A DNA stretch of 28,555 nucleotides from positions 1-28,555 of the IMG/VR virus record IMGVR_UViG_3300032286_000147; one strand, 5' to 3'. Under the pieces are notes generated by a model that saw only the letters and a program-made list of their open reading frames with translations, was not told the DNA's origin and made no database searches. The position numbers were made by a program, and so were the translations under genes. Source of the stretch: a virus. This document shows positions 15,466-28,340 of this stretch, piece after piece (position 1 is the first letter of the stretch; each line of letters opens with the position of its first letter).

Positions 15466-15554
15466 TTTTCTGCTCCCGTTGCAAAAAAAGGTATTGCATG
15501 ACTGCAAAGGATTGTCTAGTGTCCGTCTTGTCAAAAACACAGGAAGGTTCACTG
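15466..15554. promoter_or_regulatory. Divergent intergenic region with an inverted repeat and GACAA half-sites
   Basis: This 89-bp stretch separates the leftward VRR-NUC operon from the rightward replication operon. It holds an inverted repeat TTGCA-TGAC-TGCAA at 15494-15507, with one more TTGCA at 15479-15483. Read leftward, two GACAA half-sites lie at 15512-15516 and 15528-15532; the second is within a perfect -35-like TTGACA (15528-15533). No convincing -10 follows it at the standard spacing, so promoters may need an activator. AGGAAGG just before 15555 is the ribosome binding site of the rightward gene. Confidence 0.5.
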
Positions 15555-16685
15555 ATGGCACAACACTCCTCTATCGTCGGCGGCTCCACAGCCAAGCGCG
15601 TCATGGCCTGCCCCGGCTCGGTCAAGCTCGTCCAGCAAATGCCGCCCAAGCCGTCTAGCAAATACGCGGACGAGGGCACGCTGCTCCACAACGTCATTGC
15701 GGAGATCCTGACGACCGACCGCACGCCTGAGAGCTATCTCGGCACGGTCTACGAGGGCATCACGCTCGACCAAGACCTGATCGACGCCAAGCTGCGCCCG
15801 GCGCTGGACGCGCTGAACGAGATCGACCCCAACAAGGAGATGGAATACGCCGTCGAGCAGGTCGTCGGCTTCGACACCGCGCTGCCGGGCGTGTTCGGCT
15901 CCGCCGACCTGATCGGACGGCTGGGCAACCGCGCCATCGTCCTCGACTGGAAGTTTGGCTCCGGCGTCGCCGTGGACGTGGAGGAGAACGCGCAGGCGAT
16001 GTTCTACGCCGCTGCCGCCATGCGCACGCCCGCCACGATGTGGGCGTTCCAAGGCGTGACCGAGATCGAGTGCATCATCGTGCAGCCGCCCAGTGTCAAG
16101 CGGTGGGTGACGTACCCGTCGCGCATCGCATCGTTCGAACGCGAGCTGGTCCTCGCCGTGCGCGGCGCGATGCTCTCCGACGCGCCGCTCTCGTCTGGCG
16201 ACCATTGCCGGTGGTGCGCGGCCAAGCCAATCTGCCCGGTGATGACCGGAGCTGTGGACAGGGCACTAAAAAATAAGTTGCACGCCATAGACGCGGCGCA
16301 GATTGGTGTCTATCTTAAGCAGGCTGAACTGCTAGAGGCATGGATCAGCGGCGTGAACGAGCTCGCGTATCAGATGCTTGATGAAGGTCTGTCGGTGCCA
16401 GGCTATAAGCTGGTGCCGAAGCGCTCGACGCGCAAGTGGATCGACGACGACAAGGCGCTTGAGGCGCTTGAGGCGCTCGGATGGCCTACTAGAGAATTGG
16501 TGGAGATGACGGTTATCAGTCCGGCGAAGGCGGAGAAGCTGCTCAAGAAGCAGAAGATCGCGCTGCCTGCTGACCTCGTCGTCTCCATCTCAACGGGCAA
16601 CACTCTGGTAACCGAGGATGATCCTCGCCCAGCGGTGATGCAGATCGGCAAGCAGCTTGCTTCCGCTCTTGGTAAACTCGTCTAA
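15555..16685 (+). CDS. DUF2800-type, Cas4/AddB-like PD-(D/E)XK nuclease
   Basis: This is a 376-residue protein, with its start at 15555 after AGGAAGG. It carries a RecB-type nuclease core: DEGTLLHN (Glu40, His45), FGSADLIG (Asp118) and IVLDWKFG (Asp131, Lys133). Four cysteines, Cys19 (MACPGS) and CRWCAAKPIC (218, 221, 227), reproduce the split spacing of the iron-sulphur cluster in Cas4 and AddB. The opening HSSIVGGSTAKRVMACPGS is the hallmark of DUF2800 phage proteins. It probably resects or processes DNA ends in recombination-dependent replication. The C-terminal third (about 240-376) is a separate helical region. The next gene, 12 bases downstream, encodes an SSB-like protein, so the two are likely partners. 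Confidence 0.85.
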   Translation: MAQHSSIVGGSTAKRVMACPGSVKLVQQMPPKPSSKYADEGTLLHNVIAEILTTDRTPESYLGTVYEGITLDQDLIDAKLRPALDALNEIDPNKEMEYAVEQVVGFDTALPGVFGSADLIGRLGNRAIVLDWKFGSGVAVDVEENAQAMFYAAAAMRTPATMWAFQGVTEIECIIVQPPSVKRWVTYPSRIASFERELVLAVRGAMLSDAPLSSGDHCRWCAAKPICPVMTGAVDRALKNKLHAIDAAQIGVYLKQAELLEAWISGVNELAYQMLDEGLSVPGYKLVPKRSTRKWIDDDKALEALEALGWPTRELVEMTVISPAKAEKLLKKQKIALPADLVVSISTGNTLVTEDDPRPAVMQIGKQLASALGKLV

Positions 16686-16697
16686 AGGAACACACGA

Positions 16698-17354
16698 ATG
16701 TCAAACCTTACTGTTTTCGGCAACGCTAACCTTCCCTCCGCCGCCTCACTGGCGGACTCCCTGCGCAGCATCAAGACCGGCGTGTCTGACGCTGGTGGCA
16801 GCGTCATCCTCAAGATGGACAAGACCGGGCACTGGGTGTTCGGCGCTGACCAGACTGAGGTCGAGGACGGCGCGACTTGGGCCATCAACCCGTTCTCGTT
16901 CGTCCACGGCTTTATTGCTTGGGGCGAGGGTGACGTGCTGGGCGAGAAGATGGTGCCGGTGTCGTCGCCGCTGCCAGAGCTTGACGCCGCTCCGGCGGGT
17001 GCCAAGCGTGGCTGGGAAACGCAGGTCGGCATGTCGCTGAAGTGCGTCTCAGGGGACGACAAGGACATGGAAGCCCGCTACACGGTCACGTCCGTAGGCG
17101 GCAAGCGTGCTGTGCAGGCGCTGGCGCTCGCCATCGCCAGCCAGGTCGAGAAGGACCAGACGAAGCCGGTTCCGGTTGTTCGTCTGAAGAAAGAGCACTA
17201 TATGCACAAGTCCTATGGCCGCATCTACACCCCGGTGTTTGACATCGTGGAGTGGATGGGCATGGATGGTGGTTCGACCGAAGTTGATGCGCCTCCCGTC
17301 GCTGATGCTCCGGCTGAAGCTCCCGCCGATCCGCGTCGCCGTCGCCGCGCGTAA
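16698..17354 (+). CDS. SSB-like ssDNA-binding protein with arginine-rich tail (copy 1)
   Basis: This is a 218-residue protein with a beta-rich core. Segments include ILKMDKTGHWVFGADQTEVE, GFIAWGEGDVLG, KRGWETQVGMSLKC and, at about 150-188, KPVPVVRLKKEHYMHK plus TPVFDIVEWMG. The tail (about 189-218) is disordered Ala/Pro/Asp ending in PRRRRRA. Position between the nuclease and polymerase genes, size and tail layout suggest a phage single-strand DNA-binding or annealing protein. It shares order and motif spacing with the 26204-26884 protein (PVVVLR...PIFEIVSWVG), so I consider them homologous. A basic tail is unlike the acidic tip of usual SSBs. ssDNA binding is inferred from context, not from a diagnostic motif. 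Confidence 0.65.
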   Translation: MSNLTVFGNANLPSAASLADSLRSIKTGVSDAGGSVILKMDKTGHWVFGADQTEVEDGATWAINPFSFVHGFIAWGEGDVLGEKMVPVSSPLPELDAAPAGAKRGWETQVGMSLKCVSGDDKDMEARYTVTSVGGKRAVQALALAIASQVEKDQTKPVPVVRLKKEHYMHKSYGRIYTPVFDIVEWMGMDGGSTEVDAPPVADAPAEAPADPRRRRRA

Positions 17355-17366
17355 GGGAGAGTGAAA

Positions 17367-17401
17367 GCGGGCGCTGCTGCCCCTCCCCCAGCAGCGCCCG
17401 C
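17367..17401 (+). promoter_or_regulatory. 13-bp perfect hairpin between SSB-like and polymerase genes
   Basis: GCGGGCGCTGCTG (17367-17379) pairs perfectly with CAGCAGCGCCCGC (17389-17401) around a C-rich loop CCCCTCCCC. There is no U-tract after the stem, so it is not a standard intrinsic terminator. It may be an RNA processing, stability or protein-binding element that separates expression of the abundant SSB-like protein from the polymerase. Confidence 0.7.
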
Positions 17402-17419
17402 GAGTAACTGAGAAACATC

Positions 17420-19387
17420 ATGACAACACTCTGGCTCGATTTCGAGACGCGCAGCCGCTGCGACCTTCGCTCGCGCGGCGTCTACAATTACGCACAGGAC
17501 CGCTCAACGTCCGTGCTGTGCATGTCCTACGCGTTCGACGACGAAGAGGTCGTCACTTGGACGCCAGACCAGCCGTTCCCGCGTCGCGTCGCGGAGCACA
17601 CAGGCCAGATTAGAGCACACAACGCCGCCTTCGAGCGGCTTATCTTTTGGTTCGTCCTCTGCCCCGACCAAGGCATCCGCGAGCCGTCGCTGTCGCAGTT
17701 CTACTGCACCGCGACGCAAGCCCGCGCCAACTGCGCGCCCGGCTCGCTGGAGGACGTGGGCCGGTTCAGCGGCGCGACGATGAAGAAGGACCATCGCGGG
17801 TCGCAACTGATCCGCCTGTTGTCGGTCCCCCGCGCTGACGGGACGTTCAACGACGATCCGGCGCTGCTGGACGAGATGTACCGTTATTGTGACCAGGATG
17901 TCCGTGCCATGCGCGCCATCAGCCGCAGCCTGCGCGACCTGTCCGCCGAAGAGCTGGCCGACTACCACGTCAACGAGCGCATCAACGACCGAGGCGTGCG
18001 CGTCGATCTGGCGCTGTGCAACGCAGCGGTCAAGTACGCCAGCGACGAGCTGGTTGAAATCCAGCAGATCGTGGCCGAGGTGACGCAGGGCGCGATCACG
18101 AGCGTGCGCAGCCCGAAGATGCGCCAGTGGGTGCAGGACCGCGTCGGGCCGGAGGCGCTCAAGCTAATGACCGTCCACAAGGACGGCGTCGAGAAGATGT
18201 CCATTGACAAGAACGTCCGCGCCAACTTGCTGACGTTCGCCGCCGAGAACCCCGACGAGGTGCCGCCTGACGTGGCCGAGGTGATCCAGTGCGCTGACGA
18301 CCTGTGGGCGTCCAGCGTGGCGAAGTTCAACCGTATGTCGGCGCTGGCCGACGACGAGGACCACCGCGTCCGTGGCGCGTTCGTGTTCGCTGGCGGTGCT
18401 GCCACCGGACGCGCGTCGTCGTACGGGCTTCAGTGTCACAATTTTGCGCGCAAGTGCGCCAAGGAGCCGACCGAGACGCGCGAGGCGATGGTGCGCGGCC
18501 ACAAGATCGTGCCGCTGTACGGTCGCCGCGTGACCGACGTGCTGAAGGGCATGCTACGCCCGGCGCTGCTGGCGAGCGATGGCAACTGGCTGGCCGTGGC
18601 CGACTGGTCGTCCATCGAGGCGCGCGTCAACCCGTGGCTGTCGGGCCGTGGCGACGCCAAGCTGGAGCTGTTCCGCAGCGGCCGCGATGTCTACAAGGTC
18701 AACGCGATGGCGACGTTCCGTGTTGAGTTCGACGACGTGACGCCTGACCAGCGCCAAGTTGGAAAAGTTCAAGAACTCGCCTGTGGCTTCGCTGGCGGTG
18801 TCGGCGCGTTCGCCGCGATGGGCCGCGTTTACGGCTTGGCGCTGCCAGAGCCAGAGGCCAAGCGCATGGTGGACGGCTGGCGCAAGGCGAACACTTGGGC
18901 CTTGCCGTTCTGGCAGGATCTGGAGCAGGCGTATACGCGCGCCATGCGCCACAAGGGCCACGAGTTCACGGCGGGCCGGATTACCTACTTGTTCGACGGA
19001 TCGCACCTCTGGTACGCTCTGCCTTCCGGCCGCGTGCTCTGCTATCCGTTCGCGCGTCTGGAGGCCGAGGGCGTCACTTACGCCAAGGCCGCGTGGAAGC
19101 CCGCCGCAGATGCGAAAGAATGGCCACGCGCCCGGCTCTGGAAGGGGCTGGCGTGCGAGAATGTGACGCAAGCGACGGCCAACGACCTGTTGCGCTATTC
19201 GCTGCGGATGCTGGACGCGGAGAAGTTCGAACCCGTGCTGCATGTCCATGACGAAATCGTCTTGGAGACGGACGACCCCGACCGTACGGTCGAGGCGATG
19301 AAGCGGATCATGTGCTCCACACCGACGTGGGCCGAGGGAATACCACTCGGCATTGAGGCGCACACGATGAGACGTTACGGGAAATAA
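17420..19387 (+). CDS. Family A DNA polymerase (phage type, with 3'-5' exonuclease domain)
   Basis: This 655-residue replicative polymerase is of the Pol I family. The N-terminal exonuclease has the Exo I motif LWLDFETRS (Asp7, Glu9), an AHNAAFE Exo II region and a YRYCDQDV Exo III region. Polymerase motif A is VADWSSIEARV (Asp395), motif B RQVGKVQELACGFAGG (Arg445, Lys449), and motif C VLHVHDEIV (His610, Asp611, Glu612). No 5'-3' exonuclease domain is present, as usual for phages. The FAGGAATGRASSYGLQCHNF block is the phage palm/thumb signature. The position Phe/Tyr in motif B that sets ddNTP sensitivity is Phe in GFAGG or its neighbour; I would not assign it without an alignment. It lies directly upstream of the primase-helicase. 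Confidence 0.95.
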   Translation: MTTLWLDFETRSRCDLRSRGVYNYAQDRSTSVLCMSYAFDDEEVVTWTPDQPFPRRVAEHTGQIRAHNAAFERLIFWFVLCPDQGIREPSLSQFYCTATQARANCAPGSLEDVGRFSGATMKKDHRGSQLIRLLSVPRADGTFNDDPALLDEMYRYCDQDVRAMRAISRSLRDLSAEELADYHVNERINDRGVRVDLALCNAAVKYASDELVEIQQIVAEVTQGAITSVRSPKMRQWVQDRVGPEALKLMTVHKDGVEKMSIDKNVRANLLTFAAENPDEVPPDVAEVIQCADDLWASSVAKFNRMSALADDEDHRVRGAFVFAGGAATGRASSYGLQCHNFARKCAKEPTETREAMVRGHKIVPLYGRRVTDVLKGMLRPALLASDGNWLAVADWSSIEARVNPWLSGRGDAKLELFRSGRDVYKVNAMATFRVEFDDVTPDQRQVGKVQELACGFAGGVGAFAAMGRVYGLALPEPEAKRMVDGWRKANTWALPFWQDLEQAYTRAMRHKGHEFTAGRITYLFDGSHLWYALPSGRVLCYPFARLEAEGVTYAKAAWKPAADAKEWPRARLWKGLACENVTQATANDLLRYSLRMLDAEKFEPVLHVHDEIVLETDDPDRTVEAMKRIMCSTPTWAEGIPLGIEAHTMRRYGK

Positions 19388-19405
19388 ACGGGGAGAACGG
19401 GTCAC

Positions 19406-21709
19406 ATGAGAGACTTTATCGAGTTCATTCAAGGACTGGCCGAACACGGCGAGACGCCGCTGCTGGTCAAGCAGAAGCCGGTCATGCACAACGGCAAGCA
19501 GGTGACGCATGGCGATGGGACGCTGAAATATACGTGGCCCGCGTACCTGCCGACGCGCACGCCAAAGGCGGGCGAAGCCTGGTACATGAACACCGGATCG
19601 TTCATTGTTGACCGTTTCAGCGAAGGTCAGCCAAGCGCCAGCGCGTCCAATTGCGAGTACGTGCTGTGCCTGATGCTGGACGATGTCGGCACGAAGGCGA
19701 AGGCACCGCCGTTGCCGCCGACGTGGGTCATCGAGACCTCGCCGGGGTCGTTCCAGTGGGGCTACGCCTTCAGCGACCAGCCGACCAAGGGCGAATTTAC
19801 CGCAGCAATTAAGGCGATTGCGGCCGCAGGCTACACCGACCCCGGCGCGACCAACGCGGTGCGGAACTTCCGCATTCCGGGTTCAACTAACCTTAAACCC
19901 GGACGCGATGGGTTCAAGTCAAGGCTCGTTTCCTTTAATCCCGAACGCGAGTTCACGCTGCCGGAGATCTGCGCCGCGCTTGGCGTGACGCCAGCCGAGG
20001 CCGACACGGCCAGAGCCATCAGCTTCCGCCTGCGCGACACCGGCAAGGACAGCGTCTTGGAGTGGCTGAACGATCAAGGCTTGGTCCTATCCAACGTCAA
20101 CGCGGAGGGCTGGATGGGCGTCGTCTGCCCGAACAGCGCCCAGCACTCGGACGGCCAGATTGAAGCGCGCTACAAGCCGCTTGACCGGTCGTTTTGTTGT
20201 TACCACGGCCACTGCGAGGACTTCAACAGCCGTGCGTTCTTGCGCTGGGTCTGCGATAATGGTGGGCCGCGCGTCAATCCTGGCCTGCGCGACGAGCTGC
20301 TGGCCGAACACATGAGCAACACGCTGTCCAAGCTGACGCCGACCGAGATGTTTTCCGACGAGGCGGCCAAGGTCGTGGCCGAGGTTGAGCGTAAGGAGCT
20401 TGGTCGCGTCGAGAAGTCTGACTGGTACGAACGCTTCGCCTACATCTTGGATGACGACTCGTTCTTTGACATCCGCGACTGTCGCGAGCTGGGCCGCACG
20501 ACCTTTAACGCGATTTATCGCCACGTTCCCTGTCAGTCGATCCACAACGGCCGCAAGGTCGAGGCGTCGATCTGCTTCGACGAGAACCGCCAGGCCATGA
20601 ACGCCCGCCTGCTGCGCGGTGTCACCTACGCCGCTGGCGAGGCCGTGCTGGTCGCGCGTGACGGCGAGGTGTACGGCAACCGCTGGCGCAACGCGCGGCC
20701 GGACGTGTCCGGGACAAGTCCCGGCGATGTCAGCCCGTGGCTGGACCACTGCCGGTTGCTGGTGCCGGAGCCTGCGGAGCTGGAGCACGTCCTCAACATG
20801 ATGGCGTTCAAGATCCAGAACCCCGGCGTCAAGATCAACCACGCGGCGCTGCACGGCGGTGACGAAGGCTGTGGCAAGGACTCCATGTGGGCACCGTTCA
20901 TCTGGGCTGTCTGTGGCCCGCATCTGCGCAACCGTGGCTTGATCGACAACGACGCGCTGTCGTCCCAATGGGGCTACCAGCTTGAGAGCGAGATCCTGAT
21001 CCTCAACGAGCTGAAGGAGCCGGAGGCGGCGCAGCGCCGCGCGCTGGCGAACAAGCTGAAGCCCGTCATCGCCGCCCCGCCTGACATGATCGTCGTCAAC
21101 CGCAAGGGGCTGCACCCTTACAACATGCTGAACCGCATGTTCGTCCTCGCGTTCACGAACGATCCGGTGCCGATTAGCATTCCCTCGCAGGACCGCCGCT
21201 GGTTCTGCCTTTGGTCGAACGCGCCCCGGATGGCCCCGGCGGATGCTGACCGTCTGTGGACTTGGTACAAGACGGGCGGGTTCGAGAAGGTCGCGGCGTG
21301 GATGTACGCCCGTGACGTGTCAAAGTTCAACCCAGCGGCCGCGCCGCCCTTCACCGAGTTCAAGGCGAACCTGGTCGAGCATGGCATGAGCATCGCGGAG
21401 AGCTTCCTTGTAGACCTGATCCGCGTCAAGGCTGGCGAGTTCTCGCGCGGCGTGATCGGCTCGCCGTTCTTCGCGCTCTGCGACCGTCTGGTCGCGTCCG
21501 CCCCGGCGGGCGTCAAGATCCCGCAAGCCGCGCTGCTGCACGCGCTCAAGGAGGCCGGGTGGGTGGACATGGGGCGGCTGGCGTCTGGCTCGCACATGAC
21601 CAAGAAGCACGTCTTCGCCACGCCAGACATGGCGCGCAACCACAGCAAGTCGGAGCTGCGCAACATGCTGGAAGCGCCCGCAACGCCAAGCTTGAAGATT
21701 GTAAAATGA
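19406..21709 (+). CDS. Primase-helicase fusion (RepB-type AEP primase + D5-like SF3 helicase)
   Basis: This is a 767-residue protein. Residues about 75-215 resemble RepB/AEP-type primases: CLMLDDVG, then WVIETSPGSFQWGYAFSDQP and AVRNFRIPGSTNLKPG. A zinc-binding-like cluster follows (Cys241 in VVCPNS, His247, and CCYHGHC at 264-270). The C-terminal half is a superfamily 3 helicase: Walker A HGGDEGCGKDSMW (Lys491), Walker B-like ILILNELKE, and sensor region VLAFTNDPVPISIPSQDRRW. D5/DUF5906-type proteins of this plan unwind the fork and prime synthesis for the polymerase encoded just upstream. It closes the rightward replication operon; a strong terminator follows. Confidence 0.87.
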   Translation: MRDFIEFIQGLAEHGETPLLVKQKPVMHNGKQVTHGDGTLKYTWPAYLPTRTPKAGEAWYMNTGSFIVDRFSEGQPSASASNCEYVLCLMLDDVGTKAKAPPLPPTWVIETSPGSFQWGYAFSDQPTKGEFTAAIKAIAAAGYTDPGATNAVRNFRIPGSTNLKPGRDGFKSRLVSFNPEREFTLPEICAALGVTPAEADTARAISFRLRDTGKDSVLEWLNDQGLVLSNVNAEGWMGVVCPNSAQHSDGQIEARYKPLDRSFCCYHGHCEDFNSRAFLRWVCDNGGPRVNPGLRDELLAEHMSNTLSKLTPTEMFSDEAAKVVAEVERKELGRVEKSDWYERFAYILDDDSFFDIRDCRELGRTTFNAIYRHVPCQSIHNGRKVEASICFDENRQAMNARLLRGVTYAAGEAVLVARDGEVYGNRWRNARPDVSGTSPGDVSPWLDHCRLLVPEPAELEHVLNMMAFKIQNPGVKINHAALHGGDEGCGKDSMWAPFIWAVCGPHLRNRGLIDNDALSSQWGYQLESEILILNELKEPEAAQRRALANKLKPVIAAPPDMIVVNRKGLHPYNMLNRMFVLAFTNDPVPISIPSQDRRWFCLWSNAPRMAPADADRLWTWYKTGGFEKVAAWMYARDVSKFNPAAAPPFTEFKANLVEHGMSIAESFLVDLIRVKAGEFSRGVIGSPFFALCDRLVASAPAGVKIPQAALLHALKEAGWVDMGRLASGSHMTKKHVFATPDMARNHSKSELRNMLEAPATPSLKIVK

Positions 21710-21714
21710 GAGCG

Positions 21715-21749
21715 CCGCCCCGGTTGATAGCCGGGGCGGTCTTCTAATT
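21715..21749. terminator. Bidirectional rho-independent terminator between converging operons
   Basis: CCGCCCCGG (21715-21723) pairs with CCGGGGCGG (21731-21739) around TTGATAG, followed rightward by TCTTCTAATTT. On the opposite strand the stem is followed by a T-rich CTCATTTTAC. It lies between the primase-helicase stop and the end of the leftward operon, so it can stop transcription from both sides. Confidence 0.88.
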
Positions 21750-21965
21750 TATTGTTTTGAGTTCCGCCGTTGATGGCGTTTTGATTGACGTGATGATCTT
21801 CTGCATCATGAGCAACGTCAGCTCTTTTGTTTTTCTGTCTACTGATGTCTCGGAAAAATGCGCCAGCGTTACGAATGCAATGGCTCGCTGCGACACAATG
21901 TCGCTGAAGAACATTGGTTCGGAGTCGTCGATGTGGACCACGTTGTCGTTGTCGTCTTCATCCAT
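21744..21965 (-). CDS. Small acidic phage protein, unknown function
   Basis: This is a 73-residue protein, last gene of the leftward early operon. I prefer ATG at 21965 (MDEDDNDNVVHIDDSEPMFF), which overlaps the preceding stop by 8 bases, a spacing repeated elsewhere in this operon. A GTG at 21992 would add nine residues. The N-terminal 18 residues are strongly acidic. The rest is an amphipathic helix-rich region (AIAFVTLAHFSETSVDRKTK, then LLMMQKIITSIKTP). There are no cysteines or membrane segments. The acidic front could mimic DNA or bind a basic partner, but this is speculation. It ends at the bidirectional terminator. Confidence 0.6.
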   Translation of the reverse strand: MDEDDNDNVVHIDDSEPMFFSDIVSQRAIAFVTLAHFSETSVDRKTKELTLLMMQKIITSIKTPSTAELKTIN

Positions 21966-22176
21966 TGGGCGCGTCCGTTCTTGGGGGTTCACGATAGAAT
22001 GCCAGATGTCGATCCTTCAACAGCTCCTGTATCGTTTGCTCCTGCGCCAAGATCACAAGATTTAGCGCGATTAACTCCTCTGCCATGCGAAACTCGGTCT
22101 GTGATCCGCTCCATTTATACCGGAACTCGTTCACAAGATCGTGAATAAGGCGTTCGTGTGGATGTAGCCCCGGCAT
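21958..22176 (-). CDS. Small helical protein, unknown function
   Basis: This is a 72-residue protein, MPGLHPHERLIHDLVNEFRY then KWSGSQTEFRMAEELIALNL. It is all helix by composition, with a Leu/Glu-rich middle (VILAQEQTIQELLKDRHLAF) and a Pro/Arg tail. Start and the upstream metallophosphoesterase stop share one base (TGATG), and its end overlaps the next gene, so it sits in a tightly coupled cluster. No known motif was recognised. Overlap pattern and operon position support it as a real gene. Confidence 0.6.
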   Translation of the reverse strand: MPGLHPHERLIHDLVNEFRYKWSGSQTEFRMAEELIALNLVILAQEQTIQELLKDRHLAFYREPPRTDAPNG

Positions 22177-23174
22177 CAGGCATACAGCTCCTCAAGCTGC
22201 GCCATTGACGTGAACGTGTGGGACACGACGTGGCCGCCGCGCAGCTCCAGCTCGTAGACGCCGTAAGACCAGCCGGTCGTCGCCGTGCCAGCGTACTTGG
22301 CCACGTGGCCGTGCGGCATGGCTGACCCCAGGTTCATGACTTCTATGGAATGGTTCGCGCCGATTTTAGGCGTCTTGCGGAACGACGCGCGGTGTGTGTG
22401 GCCGAAGACGATGCTGTGGGTGGCATGGTTCGCGATCTGGTTCTCCGCCTGCTGTCCGCCGTAGGGGCGGCCCATGATGTTCATCGGCACATGGATGAAG
22501 CCCACGCCGTCGATGATCAGCCATTGACCGTAGGGGTGGAGTCGCCAGCGGTGCCTGGCGCACAGGTCTTCGAATTGCGCCCACAAAGTTCCAACAGTTT
22601 CGGGCGTTTTGTCCTCAAAGCGTTGGATTCTGGCTTCATGGTTGCCGCAGACCAGCTCTAGCGGAATGCTCAGGCCGGAAGTCTCTTTATAAAACGCGGC
22701 CATCGCCTCGCCGCAGGATTGCAGATCTTCTTGGAAGCTAGGGCGCTGCGCGTAGCCTAGGCTGCCGCGCTCCTCGTGAGACGACACCGAGTTCCACGAC
22801 GCGAAATCCCCGATCTGGACAATTCTGTCGGGCATACGTGCGACACAATGCCGCCCCAGCCAAGTAAAGCGGTCCTTGGCCATGCCTGGCTCGTCGTGCG
22901 TGTCGCCTATCGCGACGACGCGGGTCGAGCGGCCTTCTCTTGCTGGGATGACGCGCGTGCGGATCGGCGGCTTGGCATCGCGCGCGGCACGTAGCGCCGC
23001 CACCTCGGCCTCTAACTGGCTGGCGGTGCGGACTAAATCCGATACGCGCAGAGGCTTGTTGCGCCTTAGCGCATATCGGACTGTGCTTTCGTTTCGACCT
23101 ATGTGCTCAGCGACGCGTGATGCCCCGCCCATCTGCACGATCAGGGTCTGCAATTCCGCCGGGCTTAACATCAT
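22176..23174 (-). CDS. HTH-metallophosphoesterase fusion protein
   Basis: This is a 332-residue protein. GGAGG lies seven bases before the ATG at 23174. Residues 10-42 (MGGASRVAEHIGRNESTVRY) form a helix-turn-helix of the resolvase/Cro kind, followed by a coiled coil (about 48-66) and a basic linker. From residue 84 comes a calcineurin-like metallophosphoesterase with all metal-binding motifs: AIGDTHDEP (Asp91, His93), IGDFASW (Asp123), CGNHEA (Asn178, His179) and FGHTHR (His259, His261). Stand-alone phosphoesterases are common in phages; the N-terminal DNA-binding fusion suggests DNA-targeted hydrolysis (nuclease or 3'-end processing) or a regulated phosphatase. Substrate cannot be predicted. 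Confidence 0.85.
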   Translation of the reverse strand: MMLSPAELQTLIVQMGGASRVAEHIGRNESTVRYALRRNKPLRVSDLVRTASQLEAEVAALRAARDAKPPIRTRVIPAREGRSTRVVAIGDTHDEPGMAKDRFTWLGRHCVARMPDRIVQIGDFASWNSVSSHEERGSLGYAQRPSFQEDLQSCGEAMAAFYKETSGLSIPLELVCGNHEARIQRFEDKTPETVGTLWAQFEDLCARHRWRLHPYGQWLIIDGVGFIHVPMNIMGRPYGGQQAENQIANHATHSIVFGHTHRASFRKTPKIGANHSIEVMNLGSAMPHGHVAKYAGTATTGWSYGVYELELRGGHVVSHTFTSMAQLEELYA

Positions 23175-23259
23175 GTCGCCGCCTCCGTCGTTCGCGGCGA
23201 AGCTTATTGCGGTTTTATGTCTGATGCATGTCTTTTTTGGTTAATATTGTTTCATAAAC

Positions 23260-23367
23260 TCAATCATTGAAAAAGTCCCTCCAAAAAAGGTGGCAGACTG
23301 CGGCCATTCCGACCCAAGCCATGACAACCACTGGGATCATTATCAGCACAGAAATTACCTCAATCAT
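23260..23367 (-). CDS. 35-residue single-pass membrane peptide
   Basis: A short gene reads MIEVISVLIMIPVVVMAW, then VGMAAVCHLFWRDFFND, and stops with TGA at 23260-23262. Its ATG at 23365-23367 overlaps the stop of the upstream gene by 8 bases, the same coupling distance used by several neighbours. An AGAGG/GGAG stretch lies just upstream. Residues 4-28 are one strong hydrophobic segment followed by a charged C-terminus. This layout fits small phage early membrane proteins (superinfection exclusion or antiholin-like), but the role is unknown. Without it, about 185 bases here would be empty in an otherwise packed operon. The remaining 85 bases between this gene and 23174 show no gene. Confidence 0.6.
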   Translation of the reverse strand: MIEVISVLIMIPVVVMAWVGMAAVCHLFWRDFFND

Positions 23368-23566
23368 CCTCTTTCTCCATCAATTCACGCCGTAGTTCGT
23401 TGCGCTGGTGCCGGACCCTTTCTAATTTCCTGCACAGGTTCTTTTCATAGTCGCGGGAGCTGACGAGGCGGCGCTCCAGATACTCGATGTAATCCGCCGC
23501 CTTCAGAGACGCCTCGCATCCATCTTTGGCCGCCAGCGCCCGCAGCGCCGCCTTATGGTCAGTCAT
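23360..23566 (-). CDS. Small coiled-coil protein, unknown function
   Basis: This is a 68-residue protein. The ATG at 23566 (MTDHKAALRALAAKDGCEAS) is preferred to an upstream extension because of its 8-base overlap with the upstream stop. The second half is an extended charged helix (YIEYLERRLVSSRDYEKNLC, then RKLERVRHQRNELRRELMEK) with heptad-like Leu spacing, so dimerisation is likely. Ends MEKEDD. Similar small early genes are frequent in phages and have no assigned function. Confidence 0.65.
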   Translation of the reverse strand: MTDHKAALRALAAKDGCEASLKAADYIEYLERRLVSSRDYEKNLCRKLERVRHQRNELRRELMEKEDD

Positions 23567-23732
23567 GACGCGGCCTCCCATTCTTGCGCGGAGGGGCACC
23601 GTTGCGCCTCGCGATCTGCCGAATGTACCCCGGCGAGCGCAGCCCGAACAGCCGCATGATGTCGGTCAGCTTGCGCCCGGCGAGATAGTGCTGCGTGATT
23701 AATTTGTCCCGTTCTGCGCTGTAGTTACTCAC
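23559..23732 (-). CDS. Small HTH DNA-binding protein
   Basis: This is a 57-residue protein. I place the start at GTG 23732 with GGGAG eight bases upstream; a TTG at 23747 is possible but overlaps the ribosome binding site. SAERDKLITQHYLAGRKLTD, then IMRLFGLRSPGYIRQIARRN, has the pattern of a simple helix-turn-helix ('...AGRKLTDIMRLFGLRSPGYIRQIARRNG'), followed by a basic tail (APPRKNGRPRHD). It resembles the DNA-binding half of small phage regulators or the recognition domain of homing or terminase small-type proteins. Most likely a DNA-binding regulator; target unknown. Its end overlaps the next start by eight bases. Confidence 0.65.
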   Translation of the reverse strand: MSNYSAERDKLITQHYLAGRKLTDIMRLFGLRSPGYIRQIARRNGAPPRKNGRPRHD

Positions 23733-23750
23733 ACTATTTTCTCCCAAAGG

Positions 23751-24005
23751 TCACGTTTGTTCCACAAAAGATCCAAACCACACTGCCCGCTTGATGCTCG
23801 CTTCAACCGGGTCGCACGGCCCCTCGATCAGGTCATTCGGATTTTCATAGCGCGCCCAAGAGCCACCCCGCATCCACGAGTGGCAAAGCCAGCCCTCTGC
23901 GCGCTTAATTGCCCCATGCACGGGGTGGGAGCCTCCCCCATCCGTCGCGTAGATGCGGACCTCGCGCCCGTCGCGTGTGTGGTATGTTTTATCGATGTCG
24001 ATCAT
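23751..24005 (-). CDS. Conserved small phage protein, unknown function
   Basis: This is an 84-residue protein. GGGAGGAAATGAG precedes the ATG at 24005, the best ribosome binding site in this cluster. KTYHTRDGREVRIYATDGGG followed by HPVHGAIKRAEGWLCHSW is a compact beta-rich motif common in short phage early genes. The remaining part (YENPNDLIE, EASIKRAVWFGSF) is hydrophilic with scattered aromatics. No catalytic residues stand out. It may be a small DNA- or nucleotide-interacting domain, but I do not assign a function. Confidence 0.68.
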   Translation of the reverse strand: MIDIDKTYHTRDGREVRIYATDGGGSHPVHGAIKRAEGWLCHSWMRGGSWARYENPNDLIEGPCDPVEASIKRAVWFGSFVEQT

Positions 24006-24006
24006 C

Positions 24007-24195
24007 TCATTTCCTCCCGAATGTCACGTTCTTTTCGGCGCGGATGTCCTGATTGCGCCACGTCCAGCACTCGCCGCTGTCCTGAAACACGACCCAGCAC
24101 AGGTCGTGCTCGGCACCATAGTCGATCAAGACGTGCGCCAGCCCCTTGCCTTGCGGCGTCACCACGGGCAGCGGCGGATCAAGTCGCAGCATCAT
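24007..24195 (-). CDS. Conserved small phage protein, unknown function
   Basis: This is a 62-residue protein; MM at the start allows 24195 or 24192. The sequence runs LRLDPPLPVVTPQGKGLAHV, then LIDYGAEHDLCWVVFQDSGE and CWTWRNQDIRAEKNVTFGRK. It is a single beta-rich domain with many aromatics; the strand-turn pattern 'GxAHVLIDYGxEHDLxWVVFxDxGExWxWRNxDIRAxxNxTFGR' occurs as a stand-alone early gene in many phages. No function is established. Its stop lies one base before the next ATG, and its ribosome binding site lies inside the previous gene. Confidence 0.68.
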   Translation of the reverse strand: MMLRLDPPLPVVTPQGKGLAHVLIDYGAEHDLCWVVFQDSGECWTWRNQDIRAEKNVTFGRK

Positions 24196-24454
24196 CGGAC
24201 GCCTCCCCTAACGCGGCGCGGCGCGGCTCAGGCCACGGCTCGTCCCCGTACAGAAGATGGGCAGTACGCTGCGCGGCATACGTCATGTCAGACATGGCTT
24301 CACGCGATCCGCTATATTGATGCTCAATGAGGGCATCCCACTCATGCAGCGCCGCCCGCAGCCGGTCGATCTCGTCAACCAAACCGCGCAGCTCGTTCTT
24401 GCCCACCGGCCACGTCGGCCACGGGTCTTTGTCCATCGCATCAAGATCAATCAT
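24179..24454 (-). CDS. Small acidic helical protein, unknown function
   Basis: This is a 91-residue protein, MIDLDAMDKDPWPTWPVGKN, then a helical stretch VDEIDRLRAALHEWDALIEH and REAMSDMTYAAQRTAHLL. The N-terminus is Trp/Pro-rich. The heptad Leu/Ile spacing suggests coiled-coil dimerisation. It overlaps the upstream gene by 8 bases and the downstream gene by 17, which is strong evidence that it belongs to the polycistronic early transcript. No homologous family is recognised. Confidence 0.6.
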   Translation of the reverse strand: MIDLDAMDKDPWPTWPVGKNELRGLVDEIDRLRAALHEWDALIEHQYSGSREAMSDMTYAAQRTAHLLYGDEPWPEPRRAALGEASDDAAT

Positions 24455-24653
24455 CTGTCTTCTCCTTTAGTGCAGCGCGGGCGATCAGCACCGCTTCCTC
24501 GTGGCCGTCAGCGCAGTAGACTTTGCCATGCGGCGCGTGGGCGATGCGGCGCAGCGCGTCCCGCATCCGCTCGATCTCGTCCTTCATGCTGTCCTGACCT
24601 TTTCTAAAGCCGAACATGTAGACCAGCGTCAGATCGTCCTGCTCTTCTTTCAT
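24447..24653 (-). CDS. Small phage early protein, unknown function
   Basis: This is a 68-residue protein. The ATG at 24653 has GGGGAGGAGG upstream and is preferred over longer in-frame starts that would overlap the sigma-like gene. MKEEQDDLTLVYMFGFRKGQ, then a helix DEIERMRDALRRIAHAPHGK, then a CADGHEEAVLIARAALKEK segment. The 'YMxGFRxG...' opening is seen in many small phage genes of unknown role. It is the gene immediately downstream of the XRE-sigma regulator. Confidence 0.62.
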   Translation of the reverse strand: MKEEQDDLTLVYMFGFRKGQDSMKDEIERMRDALRRIAHAPHGKVYCADGHEEAVLIARAALKEKTDD

Positions 24654-24666
24654 CTGCCTCCTCCCC

Positions 24667-25284
24667 TTACCGACTTTTGAGCTCACTAAGAAAATCATTG
24701 TATTCCCGCAGCGGTTTGGAAATATCCGGGTGCTTTAAAAGACGAAGAGCCCTTTCTTCTAACTGGCGGATGCGATCCTTGCTGACGCCCATGTCGGCTG
24801 CAATTTCGGCCAATGTTTCTACATTGCCCGTTGTCAACCCAAAACGCCTGTCAATAATTTCTCTGTGGCGGGGAGTAAGGCATTCATCCATAATTTTCGA
24901 AAGAATTTTCGGAAAATCTTCCAGCATCTTTCGGTCATCAGGCGGCAACGCATCCATGCGCAAGCTACCAGCGATTTGCATCAAGTCGTTTTTGTTAGCT
25001 TCGATGTTGTAAGTGTTGCAAGCCAGCGGCTTATTACGGCGCTCCGGCGGGTAAATATGATCAGGAAGCAAACTCAATGCGTCCGCCAGCTTAGAAATCT
25101 GGAGGCTGATAGTCCCATTCTTGATGTAAAATGGGAGCTTAAAATTGATGATCTCAGTGACGCATTGATATGAAAGCTCCTTGGCGCGGCAAAATTCCGG
25201 GATGCTGTCAAAGCCCAGCTCTTCAATACGCTTCAGGACGACATTGTTGCGAATTTTAATTTGAAAGCGATATTCATCAGTCAT
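24667..25284 (-). CDS. XRE-sigma region 4 hybrid transcription regulator
   Basis: This is a 205-residue protein. Of four clustered ATGs the one at 25284 is best placed, six bases after GGAG. Residues about 20-80 look like an XRE/Cro helix-turn-helix: PEFCRAKELSYQCVTEIINF, then SKLADALSLLPDHIYPPE. Residues about 136-187 are sigma-70 region 4: CLTPRHREIIDRRFGLTTGN, TLAEIAADMGVSKDRIRQLE and ERALRLLKHPD, the classic -35 recognition and RNA polymerase flap-binding module. Region 2 (-10 binding, core clamp contact) is absent. It may act as an appropriator or coactivator that redirects host polymerase to phage promoters, rather than a full sigma. It sits mid-operon among small early genes and is relatively AT-rich. 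Confidence 0.82.
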   Translation of the reverse strand: MTDEYRFQIKIRNNVVLKRIEELGFDSIPEFCRAKELSYQCVTEIINFKLPFYIKNGTISLQISKLADALSLLPDHIYPPERRNKPLACNTYNIEANKNDLMQIAGSLRMDALPPDDRKMLEDFPKILSKIMDECLTPRHREIIDRRFGLTTGNVETLAEIAADMGVSKDRIRQLEERALRLLKHPDISKPLREYNDFLSELKSR

Positions 25285-25328
25285 CATCATCTCCATAAAA
25301 AGGGCGGGCGCTTGTGCGCCCACCAATA

Positions 25329-25607
25329 TCAATTCGGCTTCGCGTCGTTCTCCGCCATCGCCGCCTTGGCGGCATCGAAGTTGGTGCGGAGGAGGCTCTC
25401 AACATCATCATAGAGGGCGTCGAGGCCCTCTATGGCGTGGTCAACGTCCTTGGCCCCGCCAAACATCAGGCCCGCCACCATGTTCGTGATGAAGGAGCCG
25501 ACGGCGGCGACATTTTGGTTAACGTCGCCCACGGCTATCTGGTCCAAGATATATGCGGCCAGTGATCGCATATTCTCCCGGCTCAGAAATTCGTTTTCTT
25601 CGGTCAT
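25329..25607 (-). CDS. Small helical protein, unknown function
   Basis: This is a 92-residue, all-helical protein: SRENMRSLAAYILDQIAVGD, then GSFITNMVAGLMFGGAKDVD and SLLRTNFDAAKAAMAENDAK. The moderately hydrophobic middle (SFITNMVAGLMFGG) is too short and glycine-rich to call a membrane helix firmly. The ATG overlaps the upstream stop by ATGA, so translation is coupled to the DUF6378-like gene. No family is recognised. Confidence 0.62.
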   Translation of the reverse strand: MTEENEFLSRENMRSLAAYILDQIAVGDVNQNVAAVGSFITNMVAGLMFGGAKDVDHAIEGLDALYDDVESLLRTNFDAAKAAMAENDAKPN

Positions 25608-25867
25608 TTTGCATCTCCAAATTGGCCAGCGAAGGCCAGATAATTAATTGCGTCCGCATATGTGTCGGCCTTGTCTGGGCTCGTCTTGAGCCGGGCCATT
25701 TTCACCGCCACGAGGAACAGCGCCGCCTCGTGGCAAGTCAATCCTATACCCGTCATTGCATCAAAAATTGAAATGATGCGCTCAAAGTTCTCATCCAAGT
25801 CGCCATATTCCATGCCCCGCTGGTGGGACAGTCTGGTTGCATCTTCCAAAAATTCAATGTGGTTCAT
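25604..25867 (-). CDS. DUF6378-like small phage protein
   Basis: This is an 87-residue protein with GGAGATAAAA before ATG 25867. FLEDATRLSHQRGMEYGDLD, ENFERIISIFDAMTGIGLTC and HEAALFLVAVKMARLKTSPD reproduce the 'R...YGD..ENF.RI..I......G.LT..E.AL..V..K.ARL..SP...D...D..NYL' pattern that I associate with DUF6378, a short helical phage family of unknown function. The conserved Tyr-Gly-Asp, Glu-Asn-Phe and Lys-Met-Ala-Arg positions suggest a small nucleotide-pyrophosphatase-like helical bundle, but this is not established. It precedes and overlaps the next gene by 4 bases. Confidence 0.65.
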   Translation of the reverse strand: MNHIEFLEDATRLSHQRGMEYGDLDENFERIISIFDAMTGIGLTCHEAALFLVAVKMARLKTSPDKADTYADAINYLAFAGQFGDAK

Positions 25868-25876
25868 TTTTATCTC

Positions 25877-26155
25877 CTAAGCCTCGTGGTGCCCGCGATT
25901 GGCGTGCGTGGACGACACGACAGCCTTTACCTTGCCGATGAAGAGTGGGTTGATGGCGATGCGGCCCACGGAATAATGCCCCTCAGAGCCCGAGGACATA
26001 TTCGCGTCACGGTAAAATTCCTCGACGACAATGAAGTCGTGATCGGCGAGGGCGTTGGCAAATTGATCGACGGACGTGGCCGGGTGTTCGCAGATGATCT
26101 GGTGGATCGGAACGCCGGAGCGGGCAGGCATATTCATGGTGATGAGAAATTTCAC
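25877..26155 (-). CDS. Small phage early protein, unknown function
   Basis: This is a 92-residue protein; start at GTG 26155 with GGAGATCGAC before it, no in-frame ATG gives a better site. MKFLITMNMPARSGVPIHQI and CEHPATSVDQFANALADHDF, then IVVEEFYRDANM, describe a mixed alpha/beta domain with one strand-loop-helix start. It then has YSVGRIAINPLFIGKVKAVV and a His-rich end. I see no catalytic motif. It might be a nucleotide- or protein-binding fold; unknown. It is separated by 48 bases from the SSB-like gene. Confidence 0.62.
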   Translation of the reverse strand: MKFLITMNMPARSGVPIHQIICEHPATSVDQFANALADHDFIVVEEFYRDANMSSGSEGHYSVGRIAINPLFIGKVKAVVSSTHANRGHHEA

Positions 26156-26203
26156 GTCGATCTCCGTGGTGTGGAGGGGCGAGCCGGAGCCCGCCCCAGT
26201 GAA

Positions 26204-26884
26204 TTAACCGAAGTCTTCGTCGTCGGCGGGTGCCACGGCGCGGGGAGCCGGTGCGGCTGCGCGTGAGGATCCCGTCGAGGGCGGAGCGCCGCGGGCGGCG
26301 AGCGGTGCCGGTGCGGCAGTCGGGGCCTTGGCCTTGGCGGCGTCGTCAAGGGCAGAGGGGCGTCCCACCCACGAGACAATCTCAAAGATCGGCTGGTAGT
26401 TGGTGCTTTTCTTGTCGCCCGAGCCGCTGGTGAGGGGCACAGTGTCGCGCAGGACCACGACAGGGAGTTTACCGGGATTGGCTTTTACGCCCGACAGGTA
26501 CTCGTCGTGCAGGGCATTGAGGCCCGCCTTCATGACGCCCGCCGTGCTGGCAAGTTCGCGGCAATCTCCGCCGCACTCAGCGCCAAGTTTGACGTTCATG
26601 CGGAACCCTTCCTTGTGGTTCGCACTTGGGCGCTCCACGCCGGGCGTCCCCATTGGGGACATCTGGAAGTCGGGAGCAGACCCCGCGACGAAGGCAATCC
26701 AGCCCGTCTCGACGTTTTCAAAGTCAAACACGGCCTTGAAGGTGCGCGTGATGTCCACGGGCGTCGAGACGCCGTCCTCACGATCAACGCGAAAGAAGCG
26801 TCCGGCACGGGCGTCGTACTTGACGATGGGGAGGAAGTCGCCGCCGCCACTTGAAGTTCCAGTATTGCTAAAACCGAGAGCCAT
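26204..26884 (-). CDS. SSB-like ssDNA-binding protein with acidic tail (copy 2)
   Basis: This is a 226-residue protein; the start is ATG 26884 with GGAG/GGAA upstream. Core motifs: FLPIVKYDARAGRFFRVDRE, VETGWIAFVAGSAPDFQM, KEGFRMNVKLGAE and, at about 140-174, KLPVVVLRDTVP plus QPIFEIVSWVG. The tail (about 175-226) is disordered Ala/Pro and ends DDEDFG, like the acidic tip by which bacterial and T7 SSBs recruit replication proteins. Motif order and spacing match the 16698-17354 protein (GFIAW, GW-x-x-x-V, PVPVV, PVFDIVEWMG). It precedes a gp49/66-like gene and a second PD-(D/E)XK nuclease, forming a parallel module. ssDNA binding is inferred. Confidence 0.7.
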   Translation of the reverse strand: MALGFSNTGTSSGGGDFLPIVKYDARAGRFFRVDREDGVSTPVDITRTFKAVFDFENVETGWIAFVAGSAPDFQMSPMGTPGVERPSANHKEGFRMNVKLGAECGGDCRELASTAGVMKAGLNALHDEYLSGVKANPGKLPVVVLRDTVPLTSGSGDKKSTNYQPIFEIVSWVGRPSALDDAAKAKAPTAAPAPLAARGAPPSTGSSRAAAPAPRAVAPADDEDFG

Positions 26885-26949
26885 TTTCCATTCTCCATTT
26901 TGGGGCCGTGTGGCCGACCCCGAGCCTTCGCCCACATGGGCAGAACTTT

Positions 26950-27258
26950 TCAGCGCGAAAGTTGTTCGCGCAGCAGGTATCCCTCATGCGCCCAGATCTG
27001 ACGGTAGGCGTCGTCATAGGCGTAGTATTCGCCGATCTTGGCGTCGTGGTTTTCGGGGCTCGCCGCCGCCGACTTGCCGACAAAGACGAAGCCGTTGCGC
27101 ATCAGGATGAAGCAGACGGTGACCTTGGCCGCGCCGATGCTCTCGACGTGGAAGCTGTGGCAGTCAATCTTGGCGCGAATGCCTTCCTCGGTGACGCGCG
27201 GCGCGCGGCTGTCCTTGAGCATCTCAATCACGGTGTCGGCAGAAATTCGGTCAGTCAT
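26950..27258 (-). CDS. Gp49/gp66 family phage protein (N4 gp49 / Sf6 gene 66 type)
   Basis: This is a 102-residue protein. The ATG at 27258 shares one base with the preceding stop (TGATG); a GTG four codons upstream is less likely. RVTEEGIRAKIDCHSFHVES, then VTVCFILMRNGFVFVGKSAA, PENHDAKIGEYYAYDDAYRQ and IWAHEGYLLREQL reproduce the family signature 'V..NGF.VVG.SA...PENFD...G...A...A...IW.LEGYLLREQL'. The family is widespread in phages but its biochemical role is unknown; frequent co-occurrence with replication and recombination genes suggests a supporting role there. It lies between the nuclease gene and the SSB-like gene. Confidence 0.8.
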   Translation of the reverse strand: MTDRISADTVIEMLKDSRAPRVTEEGIRAKIDCHSFHVESIGAAKVTVCFILMRNGFVFVGKSAAASPENHDAKIGEYYAYDDAYRQIWAHEGYLLREQLSR

Positions 27259-28010
27259 CACATCCCCCACACATCAAACGTGGCCTTGCGGGCCACCGGG
27301 TCAGAAAAGTAAAACGTGTCCACGTCTGGCACGACATATGACGCCAGAACCTTCGGGTCGTCGCTCAGGGACAGGAACCGCTGGATCGTCATCCCGATCA
27401 GGCGCAGCGCCTCCAGATGCTCGCGAGCATTCTCAAGGACGTATGTCGCAGACTTCTTCGGGGTGACGTAGGAAACACGAGCATCGAGATTGTCACCCCG
27501 TGAAGCGCGATAAAGCGCAACTTGCCGGGCGTGGTTGGTGGAGATCTTCGACGGGAGCGCGTGCGTGGTCTTGATGTCAGTGAGGATCCCGTGATCAGCC
27601 CACTCAATGTCGTAGAAGCCCAGCATCGGGACCAGAAGGCCCTCAAATTTATAATTGATCCTGCCCTGTGTCGATGTCGGCTTGCCGTAGGGCAGAAGCT
27701 CCTTCAGGCCGGTCTTGACGAAGTCGGCAATGACCGCCTCCTCCTTCTCCTTCTTCGGGCCACCCATGAGCGCCGTCAGCGACGCAAACTCGCAGCGCGC
27801 GATGTCGATGCACTTAGCCTCAGACACCCCATCAACAAGGCCAGCCACAATGCCGCTCTCGACAGCAGTCCCACGGTGCGCGGCGGGGCCGACCGAGTTC
27901 TTCACTTTCATGAGCTTCTGGAGGATGAACATGGCAGGGCTGGCCACGAACAGGCTGCAAGAAGACGGCGAAAGGTGGTGGATGTCGTAGTGTTCAAAAG
28001 GGTTTTTCAT
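27258..28010 (-). CDS. PD-(D/E)XK (RecB/lambda-exonuclease-like) nuclease, copy 2 module
   Basis: This is a 250-residue protein and first gene of the leftward early operon. It begins KNPFEHYDIHHLSPSSCSLF. The nuclease core comprises a helix with HRGTAVESG (His45, Glu51), then MLGFYDIEW (Asp134), LTDIKTTH (Asp145, Lys147) and QVALYRAS (Gln163, Tyr167), i.e. the complete D-(x)n-D-x-K plus QxxxY RecB motif set. The usual iron-sulphur cysteines are absent, unlike the 15555-16685 nuclease. Such proteins act as exonucleases in phage recombination. Neighbouring gp49/66-like and SSB-like genes suggest a recombination module. Confidence 0.85.
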   Translation of the reverse strand: MKNPFEHYDIHHLSPSSCSLFVASPAMFILQKLMKVKNSVGPAAHRGTAVESGIVAGLVDGVSEAKCIDIARCEFASLTALMGGPKKEKEEAVIADFVKTGLKELLPYGKPTSTQGRINYKFEGLLVPMLGFYDIEWADHGILTDIKTTHALPSKISTNHARQVALYRASRGDNLDARVSYVTPKKSATYVLENAREHLEALRLIGMTIQRFLSLSDDPKVLASYVVPDVDTFYFSDPVARKATFDVWGM

Positions 28011-28035
28011 CAGCTCTCAATCGGTAAGGTTCAGC

Positions 28036-28065
28036 ACCATAGGCCGATCTGATCGGGGCGGTCAA
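28036..28065 (-). promoter_or_regulatory. Predicted leftward early promoter
   Basis: On the minus strand, TTGACC (28065-28060) and TATGGT (28041-28036) form -35 and -10 boxes with an 18-bp spacer, 5/6 and 4/6 matches to sigma-70 consensus. It would drive the 28010-21744 operon with about 25 bases of leader. A 13-bp inverted repeat CCGAT-CTG-ATCGG (28044-28056) fills the spacer and is a candidate operator. This is a sequence prediction only. Confidence 0.55.
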
Positions 28066-28067
28066 GC

Positions 28068-28112
28068 GACAAATTGTCTAATTTCATGGATTGACTTGGT
28101 GGACAAAATGTC
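28068..28112. promoter_or_regulatory. Pair of GACAAAnTGTC operator-like palindromes
   Basis: GACAAATTGTC (28068-28078) and GACAAAATGTC (28102-28112) differ at one base and both have dyad symmetry GACA...TGTC. Their centres are 34 bp apart, about three helical turns. They lie between the divergent early genes, one just upstream of the predicted leftward -35, the other after a rightward TTGACT (28091-28096). They are likely binding sites of a phage repressor, possibly the HTH protein encoded next to them. Confidence 0.6.
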
Positions 28113-28142
28113 TCACGCTCGGTGTTCGCATGGGAGGATTGT

Positions 28143-28340
28143 ATGAAAACGGACAGCATTAACTGGGAGCTTGTGCGTGCCGTTGGCGTGACGCAGGGCG
28201 CGACCCGCCACGCAGTCAGCAAGTGGAGGCAGCGCAAGATGGTGCCCCACAAGTGGCGCGCTCACTTGGTGGCCGCGACTAACGGCAGGATCCGGTGGGA
28301 TCACTTCGAAGACATGGACAAGGCGAGGGACGCATCATGA
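28143..28340 (+). CDS. Cro-like HTH regulator
   Basis: This is a 65-residue protein; start at ATG 28143 with GGGAGG upstream. INWELVRAVGVTQGATRHAV, then SKWRQRKMVPHKWRAHLVAA, is a helix-turn-helix of the YdaS/Cro kind: the recognition helix HAVSKWRQR follows GVTQGAT, and a third helix includes HKWRAHLV. The C-terminus (RIRWDHFEDMDKARDAS) is charged. It is encoded directly next to an operator pair and divergently from the big leftward early operon, the standard place for a Cro-like switch protein. The next gene overlaps its stop by ATGA. Confidence 0.75.
   Translation: MKTDSINWELVRAVGVTQGATRHAVSKWRQRKMVPHKWRAHLVAATNGRIRWDHFEDMDKARDAS

Follow-up and report, generated by a model that had tools for sequence, protein, structure and literature searches.

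The flap tip of RNA polymerase is a docking site common to sigma region 4, T4 gp33 and lambda Q (PMC2988020, PMC7171158). T4 gp33 is a flap-docking mimic of region 4 without DNA sequence recognition (PMC2988020). In the T4 MotA/AsiA system a phage DNA reader replaces the host contact to the -35 element, and sigma region 2 keeps the -10 element (PMC2988021). Phage proteins acting at the flap/sigma region 4 site are thus known. The fusion of a Cro/C1-type (XRE) helix-turn-helix (HTH) to a sigma-70 region 4, here called XRE-sigma4, is apparently undescribed, and no paper on the family was found in the open-licence literature.

The gene for such a protein, P0001, is located in a virus fragment of 28.6 kb. 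The fragment is an entire IMG/VR record and constitutes the whole stretch of DNA analysed (the window). The gene coordinates in Table 1 are exact, with the stop codon counted. The frame is complete with 205 codons, a GGAG Shine-Dalgarno sequence is located just 5' of the ATG, and no open frame was found on the opposite (plus) strand at 24667-25284. The start is kept in five close relatives. A truncated host sigma factor or a frameshift was ruled out, because the start, with a Shine-Dalgarno sequence of its own, is kept in relatives.

Table 1. Features of the window, followed by palindromes and gene cassettes in other records.
Feature	Position	Strand	Basis or remark
Replication cluster	~15498 to 21709	+	Minus-strand cluster converges on it
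Early-type gene cluster holding the P0001 gene and many small genes	21744..28010	-	
Metallophosphoesterase, calcineurin-like	22176-23174	-	PF12850, PF00149
XRE-sigma region 4 gene, P0001	24667..25284	-	205 aa, ATG at 25284
Sigma-70 region 4, residues 135-185	24730..24882	-	Pfam and fold match
Acidic linker and helices, residues 97-135	24880..24996	-	pI 4.8
Second predicted strand, residues 91-96	24997..25014	-	Alignment and AF2 model
Cro/C1-type (XRE) HTH, residues 14-78	25051..25245	-	AF2 helices and homologue Pfam matches
Conserved N-terminal beta strand, residues 5-10	25255..25272	-	Homologue alignment and AF2 model
9-bp hairpin GGTGGGCGC-N4-GCGCCCGCC	25303..25324	-	Within the 44-nt gap, immediately 5' of the Shine-Dalgarno sequence
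PD-(D/E)XK-like nuclease	27258-28010	-	Named by reading the sequence, not by family match
Cro-like gene	28122-28340	+	
Palindrome CATCTAAGnCTTAGATG, carrier G006	L106-L109		
Palindrome CGGGTCACnGTGACCCG, carrier G007	L130		
Palindrome TTAACAnnTGTTAA, carrier G018	L125		
Cassette, G451	L256:16806-20000 with L257:1-1321		
Cassette, G523	L263:1495-5986		
Cassette, G500	L262:6590-11297		
Cassette, partial, G583	L255		

The earlier note on this DNA, which named no strand, had described the protein as an XRE-like HTH joined to a convincing sigma region 4 without region 2. This architecture was borne out by Pfam, by an AF2 model and by the homologues, and a structure prediction, which by the note would have refuted the reading had it shown no sigma region 4 or XRE fold, returned both the sigma region 4 fold and the XRE helix order. 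The AF2 model was built from 35 sequences and had a mean pLDDT of 85.9. Its pTM was 0.48, and the domain arrangement of P0001 is therefore uncertain. An earlier model from a shallow alignment (pLDDT 54.8) was dropped in favour of the 35-sequence model.

At its C-terminus, P0001 clearly has a sigma-70 region 4 of the housekeeping type. PF04545 matched over its cut-off at 8e-14, and was also matched in all 35 aligned family members. The best PDB sequence matches of P0001 were SigA/RpoD chains, at the C-termini of these primary sigma factors, and comparison of the predicted model with region 4 of sigma-A/sigma-70 gave Z ~12 and an rmsd of 1.3-2.1 Å over 83-88 residues. K169-D170-R173-Q174 of P0001 occupy the positions of R584-E585-R588-Q589 in sigma-70. 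Residues R554, R562, E585, R588 and Q589 of sigma-70 are taken here to be the contacts to the -35 element, and F563, L595, L598 and L607 to be the flap-side hydrophobics, as is established for sigma-70. Among 35 divergent members, the -35-contact positions hold R/K in 34 (R554), R in 33 (R562), E/D in 32 (E585), R in 31 (R588) and Q in 34 (Q589). The flap-side positions are F/Y in 33/35 (F563), L/I in 34/35 (L595), L/M in 34/35 (L598) and L/I in 32/35 (L607). By these alignments, both functional faces of region 4 are kept in the family, which agrees with a module that engages polymerase and/or the -35 element. With the -35-contact positions conserved, DNA reading by P0001 would be expected.

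Residues 1-97 form the XRE module, and this N-terminus is common to the 35 aligned homologues. The first conserved strand has the motif (D/E)Y-x-V-x-I/V with an invariant Y5. The second strand comes after the conserved L87/N90 and may pair with the first. No Pfam HTH match was obtained with the N-terminus of P0001 alone. Four distant full-length homologues, each scanned singly against curated cut-offs, scored at or over the cut-off of a Cro/C1 profile at the aligned position: PF13443 (HTH_26, cut-off 22) in L043 with 27.9 bits (2.8e-6) and in L051 and L083 with 23.0 and 22.0 bits, and PF01381 (HTH_3) in L077 with 26.4 bits against a cut-off of 23 (7.1e-6). In the AF2 model the helices H14-22, H28-35, H39-46 and H61-70 follow the expected HTH order with high pLDDT. 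The ranking of the whole-model fold search was filled by the region 4 half, so the XRE fold was judged from helix order only. When PDB sequences were searched with an N-terminal-half profile, the EnrR repressor came out best with an E-value of 0.15, which is suggestive only. Alignments to MzaA and to sigma factors from residue 59 onward hinted at a sigma region 3 in the N-terminal part. This candidate was rejected, since in homologues this part scores as a Cro/C1 HTH and structural matches to sigma factors begin at residue 104-114.

No region 2 was found in P0001 using Pfam, NCBIfam and the AF2 model. Neither was PF04542 (Sigma70_r2) matched in 26 related carrier phage records, many of which are fragments; control genomes do match. 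Because region 2 is absent, P0001 was not classed as a sigma factor. A T7-type RNA polymerase was not found in the window, nor in 25 of the 26 carrier records, which counts toward dependence on the host polymerase. The single record with such an enzyme is G025, which encodes a T7-type RNA polymerase (PF00940, 4.5e-11) together with a divergent family member (L100, G025:11612-12505).

Compared with RpoD/SigA, P0001 is alike in region 4 (PF04545) in sequence, in fold and in the -35-contact and flap-side positions, but this region stands alone behind an XRE domain and regions 1-3 are missing. By analogy with T4 gp33, P0001 would be a phage module resembling sigma region 4, lacking region 2 and having the host polymerase as its target. 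It differs in keeping the -35-reading residues and in the fused XRE domain, and no sequence match to gp33 was seen. A likeness to MotA/AsiA would be one of functional idea, a phage reader in place of the host -35 contact. MotA and AsiA are two proteins that remodel the host sigma region 4, whereas P0001 is a copy of region 4 fused to a reader, and the folds are unrelated. Lambda Q and Q21 contact both promoter DNA and the tip of the beta-flap, the same role as is proposed for P0001, but P0001 has a sigma region 4-like fold and no Pfam or PHROGs match to Q families. In SigO-RsoA of Bacillus subtilis the sigma regions are located on separate polypeptides, as they would be with P0001, which has an added XRE domain and for which no region 2 partner was found in the 26 carrier records (many of them fragments). 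The best NCBIfam match was MzaA, a sigma-like protein associated with MZA defence. Its last ~140 residues resemble residues 59-202 of P0001, but MzaA, at ~726-750 aa, has a long N-terminal part without counterpart in P0001, and the score of 57.5 against a cut-off of 800 refers to the C-terminal part only.

At least 60 full-length homologues were collected by stepwise widening of the search. Alignments containing artificially varied rows (A4, A5) helped to choose the search patterns and had no other use. Apart from the window, ~55 IMG/VR records hold full-length homologues of roughly 24-97% identity, in agreement with the remark of the earlier note on comparable architectures in environmental phages. 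Homologues across this range of identity retain both XRE and region 4. Prophage-type copies were seen in several Pseudomonadota genomes, and copies from bacterial assemblies were collected as L022-L024. Of 397 further Pseudomonadota genomes searched with the N-terminal profile alone, 4 have the gene, as does 1 of 368 in a class sample. Among 50,697 GenBank phages no full-length homologue was found. Searches of GenBank phages and plasmids by tblastn gave region-4-only or sigma matches, many of them host rpoD, and no match with the N-terminal half. The XRE-sigma4 family belongs to uncultivated phages and is widespread and apparently undescribed. In BFVD, UniProt A0A0F7L6V6 from an uncultured marine virus matched by fold (Foldseek E-value 3e-9 over 181 columns; the protein has 200 aa). 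The likeness to P0001 is a fold match and the name of the entry, "Sigma-70 region 3 domain protein", is an automatic annotation only; by the predicted structures the protein is probably a family member. Values of dN/dS among close relatives were 0.12-0.25, and the XRE and region 4 halves have correlated identities over the family (Mantel r 0.56; none of 2000 permutations as high). As judged from these comparisons, both halves evolve jointly under purifying selection, and the family is read as one old, stable fusion.

The left 13 kb of the window is taken up by structural genes on the plus strand, one of them for a coat protein with a match to P22-like phages. The left edge is already inside the structural genes, and the late promoter region is therefore outside the window. 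In most of the records in which neighbours were read, the XRE-sigma4 gene is found among early or replication genes, the functions of which were partly assigned by eye. A DNA polymerase gene adjoins it in L084, a primase-polymerase-like gene is downstream in L040, nuclease, helicase or exonuclease genes are beside it in L058 and L073, and in the prophage G410 it is located between an exonuclease gene and a VapE-like gene. In the window, an N-terminal stretch of the phosphoesterase of the minus-strand cluster reads like an HTH. The RNA fold of the hairpin before the P0001 gene has an energy of -20.4 kcal/mol (z -4.0). Six relatives retain the stem, with variation in the loop and U-tract. The hairpin could be an attenuator or an autoregulatory operator.

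XRE regulators bind a defined operator, mostly as dimers. Several carrier phages have genome-specific perfect palindromes that resemble XRE operators, present in multiple copies and located in short gaps before Shine-Dalgarno sites or start codons. The XRE recognition helices differ between G006 and G007, which carry different palindromes. CGGGTCACnGTGACCCG is present in 96 IMG/VR stretches, often several times per contig and mostly in phages without XRE-sigma4 (L147-L226). As a control, the collection was scanned twice for CGGGTCACnGTGACCCG and 50 records were checked. The repeated palindromes were rejected as evidence for the XRE operator, because only 4 of 39 sampled records with CGGGTCACnGTGACCCG carry the gene and several records of ~60 kb are without it. 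Other records holding the G006 palindrome CATCTAAGnCTTAGATG were short and uninformative for co-occurrence. The genome-specific palindromes are candidates for an operator or an mRNA hairpin. A different layout was seen in two close relatives, with five early-type promoters in L126:9985-12562 (G002) and two in L128:9409-10179 (G003). Here a TTGACC/A hexamer is followed one base on by the palindrome GCGAA-N5-TTCGC, which fills the 17-nt spacer up to a TATAAC-like -10 element. These promoters serve small minus-strand genes, which correspond to positions right of the window's edge. GCGAA-N5-TTCGC is not enriched in the window (2 matches vs 2.5 expected). Two short palindromic sites, GACAAATTGTC and GACAAAATGTC, are present at 28010-28122 between the minus-strand cluster and the Cro-like gene, and this stretch is likely a lambda-like operator region.

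In Pseudomonadota the gene was also found last in a conserved row of four, in three genomes and partly in a fourth, after genes for a RecF/SMC-like AAA ATPase, a HEAT and HATPase_c kinase and a response regulator (cassettes in Table 1). In a three-sequence search the cassette copies gave full-length matches to the family profile with E-values of ~1e-42 to 1e-44. Region 4 of this branch is shorter and weaker (38 bits) and the FGL stretch is missing. Phage-like genes are near the cassette in G451 and G500, and a divergent regulator that reads like the WYL/DeoR type is beside it. The ATPase resembles PADLOC "Ppl" (2e-27), which is a lead only. The cassette may be a signalling or defence unit carried by a prophage.

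P0001 is tentatively read as a sequence-specific transcription factor of the phage, acting in early or mid infection on the host RNA polymerase through the flap and/or the -35 element. The XRE half would read an operator, and the region 4 half would dock on the beta-flap tip and/or on a -35-like hexamer beside the operator, taking the place of region 4 of the host sigma factor. For lack of region 2, the host sigma factor would have to provide -10 recognition, core binding at the beta prime coiled-coil and melting. The host holoenzyme would then be redirected to, or blocked at, promoters chosen by the phage; activation as the net outcome, as well as the class of promoter, is presumed. In more general terms, phages probably use XRE-sigma4 to steer or block the host RNA polymerase. 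Region-4-like HTHs can be plain DNA-binding domains, and this counts against docking on the polymerase, as does the shorter and weaker region 4 of the cassette branch. A further point against the reading is that the palindrome search linked neither an operator nor a promoter to P0001.

A possible but doubtful extension is that P0001 appropriates the host sigma factor as a single protein. Its copy of region 4, joined to XRE, would displace the host region 4 from the flap and create hybrid promoters, with the operator and the -35 element read by the phage protein and the -10 element by region 2 of the host sigma factor. This device would serve a large branch of uncultivated phages, and would also have been taken up as the output of the prophage-associated kinase/response regulator/ATPase cassette.

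That region 4 is simply a second DNA-binding head, and that P0001 is a repressor shutting off early promoters without docking on the polymerase, is considered rather unlikely. Phage XRE proteins are mostly repressors, which counts for this reading, and the palindrome beside TTGACC/A in the two close relatives (G002/L126 and L128) fits an XRE domain next to a region 4 that reads the -35 element. The flap-side hydrophobics are, however, as conserved as the DNA face, the Cro-like gene is near the palindrome region, and the palindrome of the relatives showed no enrichment in the window.

It is improbable that P0001 acts as a shut-off factor, in which region 4 would compete with the host region 4 at the flap and lower -35-dependent transcription of the host, and XRE would serve autoregulation or exempt phage promoters. 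The conserved hairpin/palindrome just before the gene is placed as an autoregulatory site might be, and T4 gp33, a flap-tip mimic of region 4, represses basal transcription (PMC2988020). A pure competitor, on the other hand, needs neither a conserved -35-reading surface nor a second DNA-binding domain.

A role as a Q-like factor seems quite improbable. In such a role XRE would bind a promoter-embedded site and the region 4 head would take the flap upon departure of sigma region 4 and modify the elongating polymerase, for antitermination of late genes. Lambda Q is a DNA binder that competes with sigma region 4 for the helix at the flap tip (PMC7171158), the phage has a P22-type coat protein and podovirus-like structural genes, and a hairpin precedes the P0001 gene. 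However, P0001 is without a Q-family match, a weak Q-like PHROG match was obtained in only 3 of 35 members, and a -35-reading surface is needless for such a role. Very improbable is a split sigma factor completed by a region 2 protein of the same phage, for which gp55 with gp33 (PMC2988020) and SigO-RsoA (PMC10141391) are precedents, but against which stands the lack of a Sigma70_r2 match in the 26 records, although these are often fragments and a divergent, gp55-like region 2 could escape.

If the proposed action of P0001 on the host polymerase is correct, phages relying on the host RNA polymerase would change promoter choice by one protein, and neither a full sigma factor nor a polymerase of their own would be needed for the switch. 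XRE-sigma4 would test sigma region 4 as an exchangeable flap module, with region 2 on another polypeptide. With the sequence signature of the family (A7 alignment), early regulators that otherwise lack annotation can be detected, and through the cassette branch the XRE-sigma4 module is linked to signalling and possibly to defence.

Sigma-70-like genes were also seen on plasmids of Thalassospira marina (L014:2300-4552) and Roseomonas (L015:3239-4360), where they adjoin ATPase/Z1 or helicase genes in MZA-like or other defence-type neighbourhoods.
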